From the NCBI GenBank assembly GCA_903902705.1, contig CAIUVX010000196.1:1-64000 (forward strand): a stretch of DNA of 64,000 nt, read 5' to 3'. This DNA is from an uncultured Methylococcales bacterium. GTDB lineage: Bacteria > Pseudomonadota > Gammaproteobacteria > Methylococcales > Methylomonadaceae. Position numbers and translations under genes: made by a program. The notes beneath the pieces are model-generated. The model made no database searches and was not told the origin of the DNA. It was given only the letters and a program-made list of their open reading frames with translations. Of the stretch, positions 10,770 through 24,482 are shown piece by piece (position 1 is the stretch's first letter; each line of letters starts with the position of its first letter).

Positions 10770-12041
10770 TTATTTATGGTGACGATGTTTAGAATGTTTG
10801 CCACCTAAAGATGGGGCACCATATTGCTGTCTCAACTCTTCAGTTGAAATAGCAGTGTGTTTGCATCCACCATTCAACTCCAGATCGACTCTACGGTTGT
10901 GAGCACTTCTAGGGTCTGCTTCGTCTGGACAATTCCAGCTATAGCCTTTAGGTGCTAACAGGCGTTTTTCAATTCCTGGGTATGTTTCAAGCAAATATTT
11001 ATAGATTGTTTCCGCACGTCCATTACCTAACGCAATGTTACGCGCTTCTTTACCTGTGTAATTGGTATGACCTTGTACTTCATACTGAGCATTAGGATTA
11101 GCTGCAATCTCTCTTACTTGGACTTCTAAATTGTGTTTTACATCCGCAGGATTGGTGTGATGTCCATTTACTGAAGATTTAACCAGCGTAGAATGTTCCA
11201 ATGTATATTCATCATTATCAAATTCCACATCAACATGAATCACAGCAACAGGCGCAGGATTGCAGGCAGCGTTATCAGGATCTGGACAAGCAGGTTTCAA
11301 GAAAATAGTTTTTACAAAAAGCCCCAGTTTTTCGGGAGTAGAAATGCTTTCAGCAGAAACCGCAAATCCACAACCTGCGATGCTAGACAGTTGGTTTAAA
11401 ACTGCTAAACCAGAAATTTCTTCTGGATTACCTGCCCAAACGCCATACACACACAGTCTGTCGCCGTATTGAGCTTTCATGGCTTGCATTTCTTTAGTGC
11501 CATAAGAGTCCAGATCATGACCATCACTAACAACTAAGACAGAAATTCTACCTGAAGTAGCCGCTAAATCAGCTGTTGAACCAACGATACCGTCATCTAA
11601 TGGAGAACCACCACTGGCGCACTCAAGTGAGTCAATACCAGAACTAAAAGCGGCTTTAGAATAAGTAGTAGGCTCTTGGTTTAATTTGGTAAAGCCATTG
11701 TCCAAACAAGGACCGAAACCGAAGCTACGAATGCTAGACATTACTGGCGATGGTAACTCAGGAATAGTTTGATTAATTCGACTTAAAACTTCTTTTTCAA
11801 CTGAAAACTTTGTTGGTGCAGGTTGTGCAGCATAACCTACGCTAAGATAATCATCTGTCATTGACGACGAGGAGTCATTGATGACAAAAAAGTTATCGGT
11901 TTTTTGTTTGTACTGCCCAGAAGTCAGTAATGGGTTTAAATCTTGAGCCTGAAATGGCTCAAAAACGGGAGTCGGTTGCGAAGCACAACCCGACATGAGT
12001 GCTGCCACAATAGCGGCAACGGTTATTAGTTTTTTGTGCAT
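10770..12041 (-). CDS. Lipoprotein with vWA-like and OmpA peptidoglycan-binding domains
   Basis: This is a predicted outer-membrane lipoprotein: the signal peptide ends in the lipobox LMSGC (Cys about residue 19). Residues 50-250 look like a von Willebrand A domain, with NDSSSSM as a MIDAS-type DxSxS and VLVVSDGHD later. Residues 270-395 form an OmpA C-terminal domain (EVQGHTNYTG, NIALGNGRAETIYKYLL, ending AHNRRVDLEL), which in this family binds peptidoglycan. A His-rich tail (KHSKHRHHK) closes the protein. It probably anchors the envelope to the wall while the vWA part binds a partner. The fusion is uncommon and the role unknown. It appears monocistronic, with phased direct repeats upstream. 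Confidence 0.75.
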   Translation of the reverse strand: MHKKLITVAAIVAALMSGCASQPTPVFEPFQAQDLNPLLTSGQYKQKTDNFFVINDSSSSMTDDYLSVGYAAQPAPTKFSVEKEVLSRINQTIPELPSPVMSSIRSFGFGPCLDNGFTKLNQEPTTYSKAAFSSGIDSLECASGGSPLDDGIVGSTADLAATSGRISVLVVSDGHDLDSYGTKEMQAMKAQYGDRLCVYGVWAGNPEEISGLAVLNQLSSIAGCGFAVSAESISTPEKLGLFVKTIFLKPACPDPDNAACNPAPVAVIHVDVEFDNDEYTLEHSTLVKSSVNGHHTNPADVKHNLEVQVREIAANPNAQYEVQGHTNYTGKEARNIALGNGRAETIYKYLLETYPGIEKRLLAPKGYSWNCPDEADPRSAHNRRVDLELNGGCKHTAISTEELRQQYGAPSLGGKHSKHRHHK

Positions 12042-12148
12042 AAGGAAATCTCCTGTGTTAATTGAGCTAATTCAAGATAAAGCAATAGACACGCTATAGC
12101 GATACCCATGAGCCGCATCGGATTTTAACATTAACTAAATTTGTTTGA

Positions 12149-12184
12149 GTAGTTAATTTGTCAATTTAAGTAGTTAATTTGTCA
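12149..12184 (-). promoter_or_regulatory. Phased 15-base direct repeats upstream of the lipoprotein gene
   Basis: GTAGTTAATTTGTCA occurs at 12149-12163 and again at 12170-12184, exactly 21 bases apart (two helical turns). The pair lies 108-143 bases upstream of the minus-strand lipoprotein start. This is the layout of a regulator binding site; no regulator can be named. Confidence 0.5.
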
Positions 12185-12383
12185 CAGTGAATAGATTAAT
12201 AGTCTATAAACCCTCTCAATACTCAGCTAATTACAGCATAATTTTTCGTTTTTAATCAGTACGAAAATGTCTGTGCTTACCGTCATAAAGCGAATCTTTT
12301 TTATGACACCCTCCTTCACTCTCCCTAAATTAACGTTTTGGGTAATTTTTTACATACAAAGATAATTTGAGTTGATAAGCGAT

Positions 12384-12424
12384 AAAAATACGAACAATTC
12401 CTATTTTTAAATATACAAATCCAT
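12384..12424 (+). promoter_or_regulatory. Conserved leader block upstream of the multicopper oxidase
   Basis: This 41-base AT-rich block differs at only three positions from the block at 15731-15771. Both lie about 480-500 bases before a start codon. Weaker similarity continues for some 200 bases (12510-12630 against 15855-15975), and a second short match (AGCTTCCA, then TTAT) lies at 12802 and 16131. The rest of the 860-base gap from 12042 holds no convincing gene; a small minus-strand frame at 12553-12810 has no family features. Confidence 0.65.
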
Positions 12425-12903
12425 TAGATAAAATAATTTATCTATATTTTGTATTTATTTCAGTAGCTTATAAATTATTTTTCCTGAAAAAAAAAACAAA
12501 AATCGTAAGATCTATCCATTGTTGCTATAGGGTATTGTTGCTAGAATTTAACTCAGTTCTTGATAAAAATATTCAAGATTAGTGGTGAAAATTCAAGTGA
12601 TTGAGTGATTTTTCGTGATGGATAACAAATACATCGATTGAAGTTTTTACTGTTAAAACCAGTTAAATATTCGGGTTGAACACAGATGATTGAGTTAAGG
12701 CTAAACCTATCGTAAGTTAGGGGCAGAAAGTTACGGATCCAAGATATTTGGAAAGCCGAACCACCGAGAGTGACTTCGTTAATGATCACAAAGGCTTTTA
12801 GAGCTTCCACTTATTCGATTTTGCACAGTAACAAGTTTTGCTGGCAAGAATAAGGTTTAGAAGTATCTAAAACAGATGCTAGTGACTAAATTAGGGGTGT
12901 GTC

Positions 12904-14877
12904 ATGATCAAAAAAATTATCAAACTAACCAACTTCAGCCAACAAGAGAAAGCTGTTGCGCGTTATATGAAAGAAGTCAACGATATTCAAGCAGCAGGAT
13001 TAACGCGGCGAGATTTGTTCAAAATGGGCTTGACCGCAGGCGTGGGTGGTTTGACAGCTATCGGTGGCGGGCGAAATTTTTTGCCTAATTTAGCGGAAGC
13101 TGCCAGCAGTTCAGGTACAACTACCATAATAAGCCCGCCCTGCAATAAGCCTTGGTCAGAGCCTCTTCCTATACCAAAAACCTGCGTGCCTGTCAGTGCT
13201 TGCAAAGGTCCAACACCCGAAAAAAGTACCTGCTTAGAAAAAGATCCTCGTTGGAATCCAGGTAAAGGTGATGTTAAGAATCCCGCTGCGTGGGATGATT
13301 TCACCGAAGCACGAGGCGAAGACCATCAACGCTGGGATGAATTAGGTGGTTTAGCGGCTTGTACACTATATGAATTGATGGCACAGGAAATAGACTGGAA
13401 CTTCTATTCCGCAGCAGAGTATCCCAATTTTAATTCTAAAGTTTGGACATACAAAGACATGAACCCTAATAGTAAGGGTGAATTTGCGACTGGCGTATTA
13501 CGATTCAAAGCACAGTATGGTTCACCTGTGTTGATGCGTATGTACAACGGCTTACCTAAAGACGGCAGAGATACCCAAGGCTTTGGTATCAACCAATGCT
13601 CTCCTCATCTTCATAATGCTCACAACCCATCAGAGTCCGATGGCGGTCCTATGCGCTTTTTTGATTCTGGCAAATGGTATGACTACTGGTATCCCAATAT
13701 TCGCGCTGGTTTTGCTAGCACCCATAAAGCGGGAACATCTCGTAATGGTTTGTGGTGTCCAGGTGATTGGCAAGAAACCCAAAGTACCCTGTGGTTTCAT
13801 GACCACCGCTTTGATTTTACTGCACAAAATGTCTATAAGGGTATGGCTTCTTTTTACACCCTGTTCAGCAAAGATATTAATCTTGATACTGATGATGAAA
13901 CAACAGGATTGGGATTGCCTAGCGGTGAATTCGATATACCTTTGTTATTTACCGACAAGGTGTTTGACCAAAATGGACAGATGTTCTACGACACCTTTAA
14001 TCTTGAAGGCATCATAGGCGACCAACAGACCGTTAACTTTAAGATTAAACCCTATTTGGATGTAAAACGTCGTAAATACCGCTTTCGTTTTCTGGATGCA
14101 GGTCCATCACGGTTTATTGAGCTGTCATTAAGCAACGGTGCAAAACTGACTCGTATTGCCAATTGCGGTAATTTATTACCCAAGGCGCAAATCGTGTCCA
14201 GTATTCGTTTAGGCGTGGCTGAACGTGCAGACGTTATTATCGATTTCAGTGCCTACGCACCAGGTACAGTGATTTATCTGGAAAACCGTCTTGAACAACT
14301 CAACGGTAAAGGGCCTACTGGCAAAATTTTACCCTCTAGTATTAAAACCCAATTACTAAAGTTTGTTGTTTCAGCTACTGCTGTTGTAGATACCAGCGCA
14401 CCATTATTACAACTACAAACGCAAACTATGGTACCGATGCCTCTCCGTACCGCTAATGTTGCCAAAAAGAAACGCAGTTTCAGCTTTGGTACCTCAAATG
14501 GAGCTTGGAATGTTAATGGTCAGTTCTTCAACCCCAGCGTTATCAGTGCCTATCCCGTAGAAGGGTCGGCAGAAGAATGGACGCTAACATCAGGTGGTGG
14601 CTGGGCGCATCCTGTGCATATCCATCATGAAGAGTTTCAAATTACTAACCGCAATGGCAGCACACCAGCCATCGACGATTTATCCAGAAAGGATGTCACG
14701 CGCATTGGTGATGCCGCTCAAGGCACAGCGGGAACAAGTAGCCTGACCTTCTATATGCAGTTCCGTGACTGGTATGGCGATTACCCCATGCACTGTCACA
14801 ACGTGGTGCATGAAGATCACGCCATGATGATTCGATTTAGAATCGTACCCCCAACCGACCCTAACGCTGGAAAGTAA
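12904..14877 (+). CDS. Tat-exported multicopper oxidase
   Basis: This periplasmic or secreted multicopper oxidase couples four one-electron substrate oxidations to reduction of O2 to water. A twin-arginine signal (TRRDLFKMGLTAGVGG, about residues 34-49) sits inside an unusually long N-terminus. All four copper motifs are present: HLHNAH (235), WFHDHR (about 298), HPVHIH (569) and HCHNVVHEDHAMM (630), the last giving the type 1 Cys with its axial Met. At 657 residues it is complete. The substrate cannot be read from sequence: metal ions such as Mn or Cu, or phenolics, are possible. An SCO-like copper protein follows after 13 bases, and a long leader related to that of the PKD protein gene lies upstream. 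Confidence 0.88.
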   Translation: MIKKIIKLTNFSQQEKAVARYMKEVNDIQAAGLTRRDLFKMGLTAGVGGLTAIGGGRNFLPNLAEAASSSGTTTIISPPCNKPWSEPLPIPKTCVPVSACKGPTPEKSTCLEKDPRWNPGKGDVKNPAAWDDFTEARGEDHQRWDELGGLAACTLYELMAQEIDWNFYSAAEYPNFNSKVWTYKDMNPNSKGEFATGVLRFKAQYGSPVLMRMYNGLPKDGRDTQGFGINQCSPHLHNAHNPSESDGGPMRFFDSGKWYDYWYPNIRAGFASTHKAGTSRNGLWCPGDWQETQSTLWFHDHRFDFTAQNVYKGMASFYTLFSKDINLDTDDETTGLGLPSGEFDIPLLFTDKVFDQNGQMFYDTFNLEGIIGDQQTVNFKIKPYLDVKRRKYRFRFLDAGPSRFIELSLSNGAKLTRIANCGNLLPKAQIVSSIRLGVAERADVIIDFSAYAPGTVIYLENRLEQLNGKGPTGKILPSSIKTQLLKFVVSATAVVDTSAPLLQLQTQTMVPMPLRTANVAKKKRSFSFGTSNGAWNVNGQFFNPSVISAYPVEGSAEEWTLTSGGGWAHPVHIHHEEFQITNRNGSTPAIDDLSRKDVTRIGDAAQGTAGTSSLTFYMQFRDWYGDYPMHCHNVVHEDHAMMIRFRIVPPTDPNAGK

Positions 14878-14890
14878 CGAGGATAGTGCC

Positions 14891-15547
14891 ATGAATAAAA
14901 GAGACTTTATCAAAAAAATGACAGGGGCGGCGTTGAGTCTTGCTGCGTTAGCGGCTTTACCAGAGGTCTTTGCCAGTCCGCATCGTGCTACTCCCAAAAA
15001 AGCTGATCATACCACGCGTAGCAAAAGAGATTTTCCAAACGTTCCTTTGCTCACCCATGAAGGCAAAGTCGTGCATTTTTATGACGATTTAATCAAAGAC
15101 AAGACTGTGATGATTAACTTCATGTATGTCCGTTGTGGCGATATTTGCCCAGGTATGACTGCTAATCTGAAACAAGTGCAAAAAGAACTGGGCGACAGAG
15201 TGGGAAAAGACATCTTTATGTATTCCATTTCCATAGAGCCAGAACACGATACCCCAGCAATGCTTAAAGCATACTCTGAACTATTCCAAGTCAAACCAGG
15301 CTGGACATTTCTGACGGGTAAAAAAGCCGATATTGAACTGCTACGCAAAAGCTTGGGTTTCGCCAACTCCGATCCAGCGATTGATAAAGACAAAACCCAG
15401 CACACAGGGGTCGTTAAGTTTGGTATTGAATCCCTAGAACGATGGGGTATGAGTCCTGCGTTAGGTGATCCTAAATATATCGCTGAATACCTGCGTTGGA
15501 TGGAACCCAATGGCAGTAGACCAAAATTGTCGGAAATGATGGGGTAA
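14891..15547 (+). CDS. SCO1/SenC-family copper chaperone-like protein
   Basis: This is a thioredoxin-fold exported protein of the SCO family, which delivers copper or manages thiols during assembly of copper enzymes. The signal region begins NKRDFIKKMTGAALSLAAL, a Lys-Arg variant of a Tat signal. The copper site CGDICP (CxxxC, about residues 82-86) and the downstream His in KTQHTG are both present, so copper binding is plausible. It follows the multicopper oxidase by 13 bases with the ribosome site ACGAGGA, so it probably helps to mature that oxidase. It is 218 residues long. Confidence 0.88.
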   Translation: MNKRDFIKKMTGAALSLAALAALPEVFASPHRATPKKADHTTRSKRDFPNVPLLTHEGKVVHFYDDLIKDKTVMINFMYVRCGDICPGMTANLKQVQKELGDRVGKDIFMYSISIEPEHDTPAMLKAYSELFQVKPGWTFLTGKKADIELLRKSLGFANSDPAIDKDKTQHTGVVKFGIESLERWGMSPALGDPKYIAEYLRWMEPNGSRPKLSEMMG

Positions 15548-15730
15548 AGCGGCAAACCAATACTGCTTTACGGAACTTTTACGGTGAAGCGAAGCAGTAT
15601 TGCTGTTAGAAAAATGAAAATTACAAGACTGGAATGACTTCTGATTCCATTTATTTTGGTCACTTCAAAACTTATCAATGTAAATATTTCACACCAATTA
15701 ACGTAACTGTTTTACATAAAAAAGAACAAG

Positions 15731-15771
15731 AAAAATACGAATAATTTCTATTTTTAAATATACATATCCAT
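15731..15771 (+). promoter_or_regulatory. Conserved leader block upstream of the secreted PKD protein
   Basis: This 41-base block matches 12384-12424 at 38 positions and lies at a similar distance from its gene. The 727-base gap 15548-16274 otherwise holds no credible gene; a minus-strand 62-codon frame (15795-15983) falls inside the conserved leader and has no family features. The pairing suggests that the oxidase and PKD-protein genes share regulation. Confidence 0.65.
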
Positions 15772-16274
15772 CAAAAAAACTAATGTACATTTTTTTACTT
15801 ATCTTTCAATAAGTTAAAAACATTGCTCCCGTCAAAAAAAAACCAAAAACAAACGATCGTTCTATTGTCGCTATATCGCATTATTGCTAGACTATAAATC
15901 AATTGCTGAGGGATACACTCAGGATTTTGGAAAAATAGTCGTTGTAATTCATCATTTTTTTCGTCCTGTATACCCAACAACAATTAGTAAATAGTCACAA
16001 GCCATAGTAGTAAATGGCTAAATCTCTTTAATCTGTAAACTCAAGTGTTAACGGAATAAAATGAGGGAATAGCGACCGCTTTCGTTTCCCTGTCATGACA
16101 AGAATTTTGTTTACCAGTGCTCAAAGGAAGAGCTTCCATTTATAGAGAAAATTATTGAAACGGAAATCAATCATCGATCAGGGTTAAGTTATTTTTCATC
16201 AATTCAGATTCGTTTGAACTGTTGGAATAGGGAAAGAACCCTAGCTAATTTACCTTCATATCAGGAGAACTGAA

Positions 16275-18650
16275 ATGAAAACAACACCAAACAAAAGTCT
16301 TAAAAGAGGAATGCTAGCAGCAACCCTCAGTATCTTGCTCAGTCCAGCCCTTGTTATGGCTGTGCAACCGCAAACAACCCCCGCGCAGTTTGACATTACT
16401 GGTCCGATAGAAAAATTTACCCTAGATACCTGTACTCCACCGCCCTCGGCTTTGCACGCCCAATCTTCTTATGCGGCTGTAGCGACAGGCAAGGTTTTAA
16501 CCTGTACTGCAACCATCGTGCTCAACGGGCAATCCATCACCCTACCCGCGAATACGGTCATTACCTATCCTGCGACTTTTCTGACCCCTTACGAATCGTT
16601 TGCCTATAATCCGCTGTGCAAAGGTGCTGTTAACTCTACCTCCTGTACTGAAACTGGATTAGCTATTCAGGACACCAACCGTCTGCCTGACAATTTAAAG
16701 CCTGCGCACTATGAGGCGAGCATCAAGGGAAATGTTATATATGATGCTGCTGGTTCTCCTCAGCGTATAGCTGGTTTAGTCAGTATTACTCAAGAAGACT
16801 TGAATAATGGTGAAGGCTTTATCAACTTTATCGACTATGCCACAGGTGAAATCCGTGTGGGTGGCGATATTGGCGTATTAAACGGTGCCCGTCTAAAGAT
16901 AAACGACCCCTTTGGTCGTTTTGGTCGAGTGAATGGTCCGTATGGCGACAGTGGCGCGGATACTCAGGATGTCCGCTTTGCAGTGGATGACGGCAACCCT
17001 ACGATTACAGCGGAAACAGGTTATCCGTTGTGTATTCCTCGCACGGTAGCAGTTGACCCATTGTGTCCCGAAACCAACCGACCAACTACTGGTGCAAACA
17101 TAGTAGGAACTGCCGTACCTGCACACATGGGAGCTTTTTCTATGCCGCCTGCGCCTGGCGTGGTGAATCCTAACTATGGATTGCCTGCTGGTTTTCCAGC
17201 CACCGTCGGTGGAACCGATCCAAGACAACAAGCACCGCTTGAAGTGGGTGATTATATTATTTATGCAGGCACTCAGGCTGTCGATAATAACGGTCCTAAC
17301 GGCAGCAAATCCACCTATGTTTCCGCCCATACCATCACTGCCAATCTGGGCATTTACACCACGCCAGGTACAGACCCTGCTTATGTGACTCAGGAAGTTT
17401 CGATTGTCGGCGTGGGTGTTACCAATGGTAATGCCGCCCCTGCTGAAGGCAGGGAGCTGTTCAAAATCGTCGGCTTTACCACCGATGTAGCGCGTCCTAT
17501 TGATACGGGTATGGTGCAGGTGGATCCTTGTGATGGCACCGAAGGCTTTCGTAATATCACAACGCAGTTCGCTAACGGTTCCGCCCTCGACCCAACTGGC
17601 AAAGCACTCGCCAACGTGCCGCTGGGACGGTTTCGTACCACATTCCTGAAAGGGACGGCGTTAGCCACACCAATGCGTCCTGCTGCCAAAGAGATCAGAG
17701 TTCAGATTCAGGGTTCGCTATACCCCGTTGTTGCTAATGGACTGACATCAGGTCAGTACCAAGCACCCGTCAGTGAATACATCTTTGCTGAAAACCTCGG
17801 TTTTGGCGGCTTGCCTATCGTTCCGAATAATCTTGAGGATTTCCCCTTTCTGTCTCTTGGACACGGTCCTTGGGATCTGTTTGACCCCTATCTAGGTACC
17901 AGCAAAGATGTAAATGCGGTACACCAAGTGGGTAATTCACCCATCCAAGGTCAGCTCGCTCCTTGGCCTGGCGCACCGACTCCACCCGCTGTCAGCTGTT
18001 CACTTGGTGCTGATGGAAAACCGTTGTCTGCGCCACCGATCATAGTGGCTCCTGACCAGATTGTGGCATCCCAAGCCGCTGTCAGTTTGAATGCAACTGC
18101 CAGCACACAGGGAACACCATCGACCCCAGCACACACCTTAAGCTATAGCTGGACTCAAAATGGTCTCCCTAATGTGATGCCAGTAGGTACGCCTATTGTA
18201 AATACATCAACCCTCAACTTTACTGCACCCACAGTAAATCCTGGAGCAGCACCTGTCATTCTCTCGTTTAATTTAACGGTCACTGACGATGTTACTGCCA
18301 GAGTAAGTAATAAGACAGTGACAGTCACGGTAACCCCAGCCGCCAGTCTCGATACCTTGCAAATACCAGTAGCTCCGACCTACCGAACAAAAGACGGTAG
18401 CTGGGGTCTGACAGTTAATTGCATTGCTAATTGCAATACTGCGGGTACCGTGACCTTCGTAGCCAAAAATACCGCTGGCACAATCGTACAAACTAGCACA
18501 ACCATGACCCATGTGGTAGGTAGTACACAATGGACTTACACAGGCAGGAATGTTATTACGCCAACACCAACAGTCGGTAATCTAAATGTGACTGCAACCT
18601 CCAGTAAAGGGGGAACTATTTCTGCGGCAGTAGCGGTACGGATCAATTAA
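16275..18650 (+). CDS. Large secreted protein with PKD/Ig-like C-terminal domains
   Basis: I do not recognise the N-terminal two-thirds. A Sec signal peptide (SLKRGMLAATLSILLSPALV, cleavage near AVMA-type residues 30-32) precedes about 530 residues rich in Gly, Pro, Thr and Asn with paired cysteines (for example LCKG/SCTE and LCIP/LCPE). Residues 580-690 look like a PKD-type beta domain (LSYSWTQNG, LSFNLTVTDDV), and the last 90 residues form another beta-sandwich-like module. It lies downstream of the oxidase and SCO genes with a related leader, so it may be an extracellular partner, scaffold or substrate of the oxidase. AGGAG precedes the ATG. It is 791 residues. Confidence 0.6.
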   Translation: MKTTPNKSLKRGMLAATLSILLSPALVMAVQPQTTPAQFDITGPIEKFTLDTCTPPPSALHAQSSYAAVATGKVLTCTATIVLNGQSITLPANTVITYPATFLTPYESFAYNPLCKGAVNSTSCTETGLAIQDTNRLPDNLKPAHYEASIKGNVIYDAAGSPQRIAGLVSITQEDLNNGEGFINFIDYATGEIRVGGDIGVLNGARLKINDPFGRFGRVNGPYGDSGADTQDVRFAVDDGNPTITAETGYPLCIPRTVAVDPLCPETNRPTTGANIVGTAVPAHMGAFSMPPAPGVVNPNYGLPAGFPATVGGTDPRQQAPLEVGDYIIYAGTQAVDNNGPNGSKSTYVSAHTITANLGIYTTPGTDPAYVTQEVSIVGVGVTNGNAAPAEGRELFKIVGFTTDVARPIDTGMVQVDPCDGTEGFRNITTQFANGSALDPTGKALANVPLGRFRTTFLKGTALATPMRPAAKEIRVQIQGSLYPVVANGLTSGQYQAPVSEYIFAENLGFGGLPIVPNNLEDFPFLSLGHGPWDLFDPYLGTSKDVNAVHQVGNSPIQGQLAPWPGAPTPPAVSCSLGADGKPLSAPPIIVAPDQIVASQAAVSLNATASTQGTPSTPAHTLSYSWTQNGLPNVMPVGTPIVNTSTLNFTAPTVNPGAAPVILSFNLTVTDDVTARVSNKTVTVTVTPAASLDTLQIPVAPTYRTKDGSWGLTVNCIANCNTAGTVTFVAKNTAGTIVQTSTTMTHVVGSTQWTYTGRNVITPTPTVGNLNVTATSSKGGTISAAVAVRIN

Positions 18651-21941: not shown

Positions 21942-22280
21942 ATGAAAAAAATCAATAAATCCCCCTTAGCTGCGGCAATGGGCGTTGCTTTTATGTCAAC
22001 ATTTGCAGTAACAGCAGCAAATGCAGAAGCCAATCCATTTGGCATCAGCGAATTATCACAAGGCTATATGCAGGTTGCTGAGGCTGATAAAGCCGCAGAA
22101 ATGAAGTGTGGCGCAAACATGAAAATGGATGACAACGCTGCTAAACCAAAACTACCTGAAGGTGCGTGTGCGGGCGCAAAACACATTGAAGGTGTCGTTC
22201 ATCCTGATGCCAAAGCGACAGAAGACAAATCAAGCACGAAAACACCAGAAGCTCAACCTGAAACTAAAGACGTTAAATAG
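21942..22280 (+). CDS. HvfA/bufferin-type metallophore precursor 1
   Basis: This small exported precursor of a ribosomally made, MNIO-modified metallophore has a signal peptide (PLAAAMGVAFMSTFAVTAA, cleavage near ANA-EA). Residues 33-47 (NPFGISELSQGYMQV) are shared with the next gene and could be the maturase recognition part. The core has two cysteines in MKCG and EGACAG contexts, as in HvfA-like peptides whose Cys-Gly units become copper-binding oxazolone or thiooxazole groups. The tail is Lys/Glu/Thr-rich. It is 112 residues, with AGGA eight bases before ATG. A short hairpin (21875-21895) lies in the upstream region. Confidence 0.75.
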   Translation: MKKINKSPLAAAMGVAFMSTFAVTAANAEANPFGISELSQGYMQVAEADKAAEMKCGANMKMDDNAAKPKLPEGACAGAKHIEGVVHPDAKATEDKSSTKTPEAQPETKDVK

Positions 22281-22288
22281 GAATCATA

Positions 22289-22768
22289 ATGAAGAAAATT
22301 AATAAAACCCCCTTAGCTGCGGCAATGGGCGTTGCTTTTATGTCAACATTTGCAGTAACAGCAGCAAATGCAGAAGCCAATCCATTCGGTATGACTGAGC
22401 TATCACAAGGTTATATGCAAGTTGCAGAAGCAGAAATGAAATGTGGCGCGAACATGAAAATGGATGATGCCCACGCCAAAATGCCTGAAGCTGCTTGTGC
22501 AGGTAAAAAAGCCGATGATGCAAAACCTGCTGATACTACAGCGACTGATACCAAAGCTCCAGAAGCCTCATGTGGCAACATGATGGAAGATGGCAAAATG
22601 AAAAAAGGTATGGAAGCGTCTTGCGGCGAAATGATGAAAGGCAAAGAAGGCGCGTGCGGCATGATGTCATCTGGTGATACCATGAAAATGCCAGAAAATA
22701 AAGCCACAAAGTTAGTAAACAAACCAACAGGAACTAAAGTAGTACCCTACGTTCCCGCTGCTAAATAA
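22289..22768 (+). CDS. HvfA/bufferin-type metallophore precursor 2, Cys/Met-rich
   Basis: This is the second precursor, eight bases after the first. Its signal peptide and first 15 mature residues are nearly identical to those of precursor 1, even at DNA level. The core is larger, with five cysteines: MKCG, AACAG, ASCGN, ASCGE and GACGM. Each lies near Met and Glu (EASCGNMM, EASCGEMM, EGACGMM), a spacing close to the EGKCG repeats of HvfA. Met-rich stretches suggest copper binding in the periplasm. It is 159 residues. The MNIO maturase follows after 132 bases that contain two hairpins. Confidence 0.8.
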   Translation: MKKINKTPLAAAMGVAFMSTFAVTAANAEANPFGMTELSQGYMQVAEAEMKCGANMKMDDAHAKMPEAACAGKKADDAKPADTTATDTKAPEASCGNMMEDGKMKKGMEASCGEMMKGKEGACGMMSSGDTMKMPENKATKLVNKPTGTKVVPYVPAAK

Positions 22769-22784
22769 GCGTTTTATGTCGTAA

Positions 22785-22811
22785 ATTGGGTTAGCCTCAA
22801 GCGTACCCAAT
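22785..22811 (+). terminator. Hairpin between precursor and maturase genes
   Basis: ATTGGGT pairs with ACCCAAT around a 13-base loop and is followed by ATTTTTACG. It starts 17 bases after the precursor 2 stop. It may act as a partial terminator, giving more precursor than maturase transcript. Confidence 0.5.
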
Positions 22812-22825
22812 ATTTTTACGATTGT

Positions 22826-22865
22826 GTTGGGTTACGCTGTTCGATAAGCTCACAGCTAACCCAAC
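22826..22865. repeat. GTTGGGTTA/TAACCCAAC hairpin repeat
   Basis: Nine-base arms plus an inner GCTGT/ACAGC stem form a strong hairpin just before the maturase gene. The same arms occur at 56346-56374, so this is a dispersed repeat family. Confidence 0.6.
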
Positions 22866-22900
22866 CCACTTTCTCTCTCATTACACTAATAGGTGTTCTC

Positions 22901-23752
22901 ATGGACACAATCCAAAATCTTGTTCATGGTGCTGGTTTAGGCTTACGGCGCAGTTTTCTAAGTGAAATTATTGTCAATCCACCTGAAACCGTTGGTTTTT
23001 ACGAAGTTGCCCCCGAAAATTGGATGACTATCGGTGGCAAATATGGCAAACAGTTTCGTGCAATGACTGAACGCTTTGATTTTATTGCCCACGGCTTATC
23101 GTTATCCATCGGCAGCACCGACCCATTAGATGAAACCTTCGTGCGCAATATTAAACAATTCATGCGTGAACACGGCATAAAATTTTACAGCGAGCATTTA
23201 AGCTATTGCAGTAAAAACGGGCATTTATATGACCTTATGCCTATACCATTTACTAGCGACGCAGTTCATCACGTTGCCGCTAGAATTCGGCGCGTACAAG
23301 ACATATTAGAGCAAAAAATCGCCATAGAAAATGCCTCCTACTACGCGGCTATGGGACAAGAAATGAGTGAAATCGACTTTTTTAATGCCGTAATTGAAGA
23401 AGCCGATTGTGATGTGCTTATCGACATCAACAATATTTATGTCAATAGCGTCAATCACGGTTATGATGCTGACGCTTTTTTAACAGCCATGCCTGCACAC
23501 CGTATCGCTTACGCCCATATTGCGGGACATTATATGGAAGCCGAAGATTTTTTAGTCGATACCCACGGCGCAGATATTATTGATCCCGTATGGAAATTAC
23601 TAGGCAAAGCCTACCAACTACACGGGGTATTCCCCACTTTATTAGAACGTGATTTCAACATTCCAGCCTTATCAGAACTTATTAAAGAAGTACAAACCAT
23701 CAGCCAGATTCAACACACATGGAAAAATCAACATGAAAAACAATCTGCTTAG
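22901..23752 (+). CDS. MNIO-family (DUF692) RiPP maturase, HvfB/BufB-like
   Basis: This multinuclear non-heme iron oxidase, in described relatives, uses O2 to convert precursor cysteines into copper-binding heterocycles. The TIM-barrel shows the expected iron ligands: HGLSLSIG, FYSEHLSYC, IENASYY, DINNIYVNSVNHG, YAHIAGHY, DTHGADI and LLERDF. The length of 283 residues is typical. Position between two Cys-rich precursors and a DUF2063 partner makes the assignment firm. Its last 20 bases overlap the partner gene. Confidence 0.92.
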   Translation: MDTIQNLVHGAGLGLRRSFLSEIIVNPPETVGFYEVAPENWMTIGGKYGKQFRAMTERFDFIAHGLSLSIGSTDPLDETFVRNIKQFMREHGIKFYSEHLSYCSKNGHLYDLMPIPFTSDAVHHVAARIRRVQDILEQKIAIENASYYAAMGQEMSEIDFFNAVIEEADCDVLIDINNIYVNSVNHGYDADAFLTAMPAHRIAYAHIAGHYMEAEDFLVDTHGADIIDPVWKLLGKAYQLHGVFPTLLERDFNIPALSELIKEVQTISQIQHTWKNQHEKQSA

Positions 23753-24482
23753 TTTTGACAGCAAACAACGTGAATTTGTCGCCTATATTCGCGACCCTGA
23801 AAATAATCCCGCCCCTGCTGATGCTCCACAGCAGCGGGTAGCAATGTATCGAGAACTTTTTTTCAATAACATCAATGGTTTTCTTACCAGTAACTTTCCC
23901 GTATTACGCACACTGCTCAATGATAAACAATGGTTTGAATTAGTTCAGGATTTTTTTGCTAATCATGTCAGTAAAACGCCCTATTTTGCCGAAATACCCG
24001 AAGAATTTTTAGCTTTTTTAGAAAATGAACGTAACAATGCCCGTGATTATCCATTTATACTGGAACTGGCGCATTATGAATGGGTAGAAATGGCAGTTGC
24101 CATCTCCAAAGAAGAGCTAGTCATTAATCAGACAGAGCTACAATTAGACTCTCGGATACAATTATCGCCGCTCGTATGGCTGTTAGTTTATCAATACCCC
24201 GTCCATAAAATATCGCCTGATTTTCTGCCTGACGTGTTACCCCTGCACCCCACTTGCCTGATTGTGTACCGTGATGACCACGATGAAGTACATTTTATGG
24301 AAATCACTCCGCTAACTTACCGCTTATTAGCGATGATTCAAGAACAAGAAAATATACGCGTCACCGATTGCTTACAACGAATGACCCAAGAAACCCAGCA
24401 TCCTAATCCCGAACTAATTAAAACCGCTGGCTTACAAATACTGACCGAATTAGCTGAGAAAATGATTGTTACCTTAATGTAG
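23733..24482 (+). CDS. DUF2063 maturase partner, HvfC/BufC-like
   Basis: This partner protein brings the precursor to the MNIO enzyme in HvfABC/BufABC systems. ATG 23733 (MKNNLLSFDSKQREFVAYIR) is chosen; the open frame reaches back to 23649 inside the maturase, but the family begins at the QREF segment. The N-terminal DUF2063 helices (RVAMYRELFFNNINGFLTSN, FPVLRTLL) are followed by a second domain ending in a helix-rich stretch. It is 249 residues. No DoxX-like fourth gene (HvfD) follows; the next 308 bases hold only repeats. Confidence 0.88.
   Translation: MKNNLLSFDSKQREFVAYIRDPENNPAPADAPQQRVAMYRELFFNNINGFLTSNFPVLRTLLNDKQWFELVQDFFANHVSKTPYFAEIPEEFLAFLENERNNARDYPFILELAHYEWVEMAVAISKEELVINQTELQLDSRIQLSPLVWLLVYQYPVHKISPDFLPDVLPLHPTCLIVYRDDHDEVHFMEITPLTYRLLAMIQEQENIRVTDCLQRMTQETQHPNPELIKTAGLQILTELAEKMIVTLM

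Follow-up and report, generated by a model that had tools for sequence, protein, structure and literature searches.

The stretch of DNA analysed here (the window, 64,000 nucleotides of contig CAIUVX010000196.1 in assembly GCA_903902705.1, from an uncultured methanotroph related to Crenothrix) carries an operon for a multicopper oxidase and a SCO1/SenC family protein, followed by a gene for a large secreted protein. Both transcription units are preceded by long noncoding leaders that share a block of sequence. The comparisons below give good support to the view that this block belongs to a promoter module of about 180 bp, and not to a leader RNA. The features concerned are the following (model R1 is described further on).

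12384..12560, + strand: promoter module copy 1, before the oxidase operon (R1 match 12381-12565, 113.6 bits; alignments)
12397..12420, + strand: box A of copy 1, 24-bp dyad ATTCCTATTTTTAAATATACAAAT, centre 12408/12409, best dyad of the module alignment
12458..12470, + strand: box B of copy 1, TTTCAGTAGCTTA, core with a weakly supported likeness to IHF sites (alignment)
12501..12520, + strand: box D of copy 1, 20 bp centred on GA/TC at about -43, with a weakly supported likeness to lux boxes (alignment)
12519..12547, + strand: predicted sigma-70 type core promoter TTGTTG-17-TAGAAT, extended -10, start at about 12554 (sequence reading, column conservation)
12690..12768, + strand: cyclic diguanylate (c-di-GMP)-I riboswitch aptamer (RF01051, 53.1 bits, gathering threshold 35, full length 1-87 of 87)
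12904..14877, + strand: twin-arginine type multicopper oxidase (PF07731, 2.8e-13; sequence)
14891..15547, + strand: SCO1/SenC family protein in the same operon (PF02630, 1.5e-18)
15731..15905, + strand: promoter module copy 2, before the large secreted protein (R1 match 15733-15909, 116.8 bits)
15744..15767, + strand: box A of copy 2 (alignment)
15804..15816, + strand: box B of copy 2, TTTCAATAAGTTA (alignment)
15847..15866, + strand: box D of copy 2 (alignment)
15865..15893, + strand: predicted core promoter TTGTCG-17-TAGACT, start at about 15900 (sequence reading, column conservation)
15900..16274, + strand: 5' leader of about 375 nt of the secreted protein gene (no known RNA family; folding z -1.4)
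16275..18650, + strand: secreted protein of 791 aa (no Pfam match; a paralogue on contig C19 likewise has the module)

Between 12384-12424 and 15731-15771, 38 of 41 positions are identical, and the best ungapped 41-base match in 500 dinucleotide-shuffled pairs of both leaders, which served as significance control, was 29. The ungapped match extends over 66 bases at 82% identity. With gaps the similarity runs from 12384 to about 12560 and from 15731 to about 15905 and then ends, the leaders being unalike further downstream. A preliminary description of this DNA had reported the block and a weaker similarity over about 200 bases, both of which are borne out. It had also pointed to a second short match (AGAGCTTCCAYTTAT) nearer each gene and to the similar distance from block to ATG (480 and 504 bases). 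Among 18 leaders compared, exact GAGCTTCC occurs in two, those of the window, and is missing from the 16 others, including the G006 orthologues of both (G006 is a metagenome-assembled genome, MAG, from Lac Pavin). Across the copies, the ATG lies between about 290 and 731 nt from the module start. These last two similarities therefore look like coincidence rather than a shared element and a rule.

From upstream, the module is composed of box A, box B, an A-tract, box D, a weak -35 and an extended -10, with the dyad of box A at approximately -145, box B at -97 and the dyad of box D at -43 from the predicted start. In the alignment box A reads CTATTTTTAAATATAC and in some copies forms a perfect palindrome, GTATATTTAAATATAC, while box B reads TTTCAATNNNTTA. 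Box D lies around GATC and is followed by a conserved CCATTGTTGC containing the -35-like TTGTTG; 17 bp separate the -35 from the extended -10, TTGCTAGACT. Dyad symmetry in the alignment is strongest at the centres of box A (7.5 of 10 paired) and box D (5.4); the mean over all centres is 2.9, with a standard deviation of 0.95. Boxes A and B are 47-50 nt apart in 25 of 26 copies, and 83-87 nt separate box B from the -10 in 23 of 26; the latter spacing is 77 nt in locus L091 and 41 nt in L092, where the -10 could not be placed reliably. In Crenothrix sp. D3 the two spacings are 37 and 74 nt, each about one helical turn shorter, as one would expect of proteins bound on one face of the DNA and not of RNA. 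A consensus promoter scan listed the core promoter of neither copy because the -35 is weak; such a -35 fits an activator-dependent promoter, without proving it. Sigma-54 promoters have GG-N10-GC at -24/-12, and this type was rejected by eye on the module alignment for its unfit spacing.

The module is not confined to the window. When the leader of the oxidase operon (leader 1) was searched against the host genome (G000) and 60 relatives, its upstream 180 bases or so and, separately, a downstream riboswitch stretch were matched. A profile of the upstream part retrieved 21 copies in the fetched loci, 20 of which were used to build the sequence-only model R1. Strong copies number nine in the host genome (77-124 bits), nine in G006, four in G004 (NSP1-2), one in G005 (a Baikal MAG) and one in G007 (Crenothrix sp. 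D3), the genomes having been named by identical DNA. Matches below 40 bits were left out of the counts (two in G000, one each in G002 and G006; also G135, G084 and G146). At E <= 0.001, R1 finds a match in six of the eight genomes of the host genus, that of G002 being weak. Among 151 genomes of the family, 11 have a match; seven of the 11 exceed 40 bits, two of them in another genus, where the module is present in 3 of 23 genomes. Carriers thus belong to two genera of one methanotroph family. The block, whose conservation in relatives the preliminary description had left to be examined, is conserved there. A two-box pattern run over the GTDB collection returned 12 stretches, nine from the host genus, two from Clostridia and one from Vibrio. 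The Clostridia loci (13-15 bits with R1) and the Vibrio locus (no R1 match) lack the whole module and, given these scores, were taken as chance occurrences in AT-rich DNA.

The nine strong copies of the host genome precede the following units.

Unit 1, window: oxidase-SCO1 operon
Unit 2, window: 791-aa secreted protein
Unit 3, contig C45: 883-aa multicopper oxidase and SCO1-cytochrome c
Unit 4, contig C45: small protein and 1657-aa multicopper oxidase
Unit 5, contig C19: paralogue of the 791-aa protein and MauG-type enzyme
Unit 6, contig C63: two secreted proteins of about 800 aa
Unit 7, contig C34: 606-aa multicopper oxidase
Unit 8, contig C139: 1770-aa MnxG homologue
Unit 9, contig C66: permease-like gene

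Multicopper oxidases stand behind five of these nine copies, one of them the MnxG homologue. This protein scores 1323 bits with the equivalog model NF041487 and does not reach its cut-off of 3100, and its Mn oxidase activity is putative. Four of the eight PF07731 genes of the host genome have the module upstream (p of about 1e-9 to 6e-8, assuming 3000-3600 genes), the eight genes corresponding to 11 matches, among them one fragment and two genes matched twice. By its gene set, then, the module appears to define a regulon of secreted oxidases. In Crenothrix D3 the sole strong copy lies upstream of curli genes with CsgE, and in G145, from another genus, the module lies upstream of curli-like genes. 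AlphaFold2 models of the 791-aa protein (three sequences) reached a mean predicted local distance difference test score of 30 and were not used.

The riboswitch in leader 1, overlooked in the preliminary description, ends 135 nt upstream of the ATG; with RF03167 the same aptamer scores 53.5, under the gathering threshold of 59. Leader 2, that of the 791-aa protein, has no c-di-GMP-I riboswitch and no credible match to a known RNA up to E 10. Five such aptamers are present in the host genome, three below module copies (the oxidase operon, the 883-aa oxidase of C45 and the MnxG homologue of C139) and two elsewhere, and of the nine module leaders in G006, four contain an aptamer. The leader of a 1483-aa oxidase carries an aptamer in G006 and none in its G000 counterpart, and another G006 leader, L040, retains only fragments. 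Judging from these leaders, gains and losses of the riboswitch layer do not depend on the module. From the aptamer we infer that the leader 1 transcript responds to c-di-GMP. Because this leader shows no terminator-like site beyond the aptamer, translation control seems likelier than attenuation. Other c-di-GMP-I riboswitches, without the module, precede very large surface or secreted proteins in the genus and in G008 (L034, L035, L045, L047, L052, L056 and L063).

A candidate for the activator comes from Crenothrix D3, where the divergent neighbour of the module, at L049:408-1289, encodes a LuxR-type protein that combines an autoinducer-binding domain with a GerE domain. Both domains (PF03472 and PF00196) score above cut-off in three orthologues, and the best homologues in the host, on contig C45, and in G006, at 65% identity, each share a contig with two oxidase units driven by the module. 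In G007, G145, G124 and G183 the gene is at most 650 bp from the module. With a profile of five orthologues, strong matches (E < 1e-100) were obtained in 5 of the 151 family genomes (G000, G006, G007, G124 and G145), all of which have the module; the next-best homologue is at 3.6e-34. The co-occurrence gives a Fisher p of 3e-8, uncorrected for kinship, with matches weaker than 1e-100 left out (5 of 10 genomes; 5 of 8 in the second genus). A later test in the second genus found the LuxR gene in the same 3 of 23 genomes as the module (Fisher 6e-4, likewise uncorrected); one of the three, G183, had played no part in finding the link. The invariant ligand-pocket residues of TraR are W57, Y61, D70, P71, W85 and G113. 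By eye these are mostly kept in five proteins, with P71 replaced by T in all five and W57 by C in Crenothrix D3. No LuxI partner was found: five of ten genomes have a PF00765 match, and the two tested are TIGR03694 exosort_acyl proteins above cut-off. Since a cognate LuxI was not found, the LuxR protein is probably a solo, and such a LuxR solo is the likely activator.

Two further observations concern this gene. Its 3' end (codons F-Y-F-stop) resembles the left half of box A (L133:4401-4420, - strand; L109:1651-1680) and belongs to the module in G124 and G183, either as a relic of an older luxR-module arrangement or by coincidence. In two second-genus genomes (L109:227-1306 and L159:1-330) the LuxR gene is directly followed by a second gene for a GerE-like regulator, which has the module in front of it, and a regulatory cascade is possible.

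We hold with moderate confidence that each shared block forms the distal operator end of its own copy of an activator-dependent promoter module, and that the activator is the LuxR solo. Several points weigh against this. A lux box is a 20-bp dyad with CT-N12-AG, that of V. fischeri being centred at -42.5. The box D consensus AAATGTATGATCGTTCCATT lacks CT-N12-AG and agrees with the V. fischeri lux box at 10.15 of 20 positions on average, as high as 9 of 500 letter-shuffled patterns. Box B matches the IHF consensus WATCAANNNNTTR at 7.8 of 9 positions, again equalled by 9 of 500 shuffled patterns, so that both likenesses are only suggestive. Moreover, the C66 copy precedes a transporter-permease-like gene and not a secreted oxidase; the LuxR gene in G000 and G006 is 9-10 kb from the two oxidase units and not adjacent to them; no orthologue was found in the module carriers G004 (88% complete) and G005 (74%); and the module copies of G124 and G183 share about 30 bp with the 3' end of the LuxR gene.

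Some of these points could also mean that the same module answers to another activator, such as the response regulator of a two-component system or a CsgD-like protein, with the LuxR gene as a target or passenger. Box A, the strongest dyad, lies far upstream and is unlike lux boxes, G004 and G005 have the module with no LuxR found, and a second LuxR-like gene follows the module in G124 and G183. Nonetheless, the presence of LuxR tracks that of the module in two genera, and the genus members G001-G003 have neither (apart from one weak module match in G002). We consider another activator rather unlikely.

Three other explanations were weighed. Many similar copies in one genome might suggest a spread repeat or a mobile promoter-bearing element without regulatory meaning. 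The copies, however, lie upstream of genes and are oriented toward them, G000 and G006 keep them in orthologous places (with 86% identity for leader 1), the boxes are conserved while the stretches between them have diverged, and multicopper oxidases are enriched among the targets (4 of 8 PF07731 genes), all of which, short of a systematic search for terminal repeats and target-site duplications, makes such an element very unlikely. A structured leader RNA or new riboswitch common to both transcripts, the other half of the earlier interpretation, would suit the long leaders and the riboswitch that leader 1 does contain. Yet RNAalifold finds no consensus pair in the module alignment, folding (z -1.3) is not clearly above that of shuffles, the block is upstream of the conserved -35/-10 and of the predicted start, and the leaders are not homologous below the promoter; we regard this as extremely unlikely. 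The observation is confirmed, and what is supported of its interpretation is the operator-promoter half: the promoter module, whose upstream end is the block, has nine strong copies in the host and more in relatives. Finally, the 3.3 kb between the two copies might suggest recent duplication of one leader, restricted to this pair; the strong copies on six other contigs already refute it, and each window copy has its own G006 counterpart, leaving it a negligible probability.

Two other regions of the window may be mentioned. The oxidase operon adjoins, on the - strand, a gene for an OmpA-domain lipoprotein (10770-12041), whose N-terminal part resembles the von Willebrand type by eye (DSSSSM). 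Between this gene and the module, a 21-base repeat, TTTRAGTAGTTAATTTGTCAM, occurs twice in tandem (12144-12185), possibly as an operator of the OmpA-family gene. At 21942-24482, two tandem genes for small secreted proteins (MKKINKxPLAAAMGVAFMSTFAVTAANAEANPFG) are followed by DUF692-like and DUF2063-like genes, a group that we take to resemble a bufferin cluster.

How could activation by a LuxR solo proceed, given what the DNA itself displays, namely the module, its copies and spacing, its gene set, the riboswitch and the co-occurring LuxR gene? The solo would sense a diffusible ligand resembling an acyl-homoserine lactone, or some other small molecule, bind one dyad (box D is in the classical position) and recruit RNA polymerase to the predicted start. 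Box B, perhaps with IHF, may bend or hold the DNA in such a way that a protein at box A touches the promoter as well. Transcripts with a c-di-GMP-I riboswitch (leader 1, not leader 2) would additionally be gated by c-di-GMP after initiation. Through such a programme, sessile filaments might acquire copper oxidases outside the cell, which may lay down metal oxides.

Parts of this arrangement are familiar. LuxR-type quorum-sensing promoters likewise have a gene for a regulator with autoinducer-binding and GerE domains beside the presumed target and a GATC-centred dyad at about -43, but here LuxI was not found, CT-N12-AG is missing, a far-upstream dyad and box B are added, and all five aligned proteins have T at the position equivalent to TraR P71. 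The aptamer of leader 1 is a full-length RF01051 (GEMM) riboswitch above gathering, here joined, in some copies only, to a shared regulon promoter before multicopper oxidases. CsgD, which controls curli and has a receiver domain, offers a parallel in its GerE domain and its curli genes; in our case an autoinducer-binding domain replaces the receiver and the regulon reaches metal oxidases. Sheaths encrusted with iron and manganese are a long-known feature of Crenothrix. The 2025 abstract of PMC11930936 calls the regulatory mechanisms of Mn biomineralization unknown; the article cites a 1902 paper on C. manganifera and describes Mn-oxidase promoters of P. putida as active in subpopulations. In Pseudomonas, Mn(II) oxidase regulation (two-component control of mnxG/mcoA, FleQ) also ties genes of this family to c-di-GMP, including mop genes in P. 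resinovorans, and, according to PMC9765421, does so through proteins (a PilZ protein and FleQ), whereas here mRNA riboswitches and a suspected LuxR solo would be in charge. A record-level literature search returned no publication linking such a module, regulator and riboswitches; the promoter, the LuxR solo and the GEMM riboswitch are known parts in a combination not met in the literature searched.

A defined module, a candidate regulator and riboswitches provide handles on the genes of the programme, on the signals that gate it and on targets for mutation. Our tentative proposal, for which the odds seem a little under even, is that Crenothrix-like methanotrophs possess a two-signal regulon, in which a LuxR solo sensing a diffusible ligand would switch on the shared module before secreted multicopper oxidases (the MnxG homologue among them), a MauG-type enzyme and unknown secreted proteins, while c-di-GMP riboswitches in part of the transcripts would add a second condition and so restrict metal oxidation or encrustation to dense sessile filaments. 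If this is true, curli control, as in Crenothrix D3 and the second genus, would be the older role, out of which the oxidase regulon was recruited.

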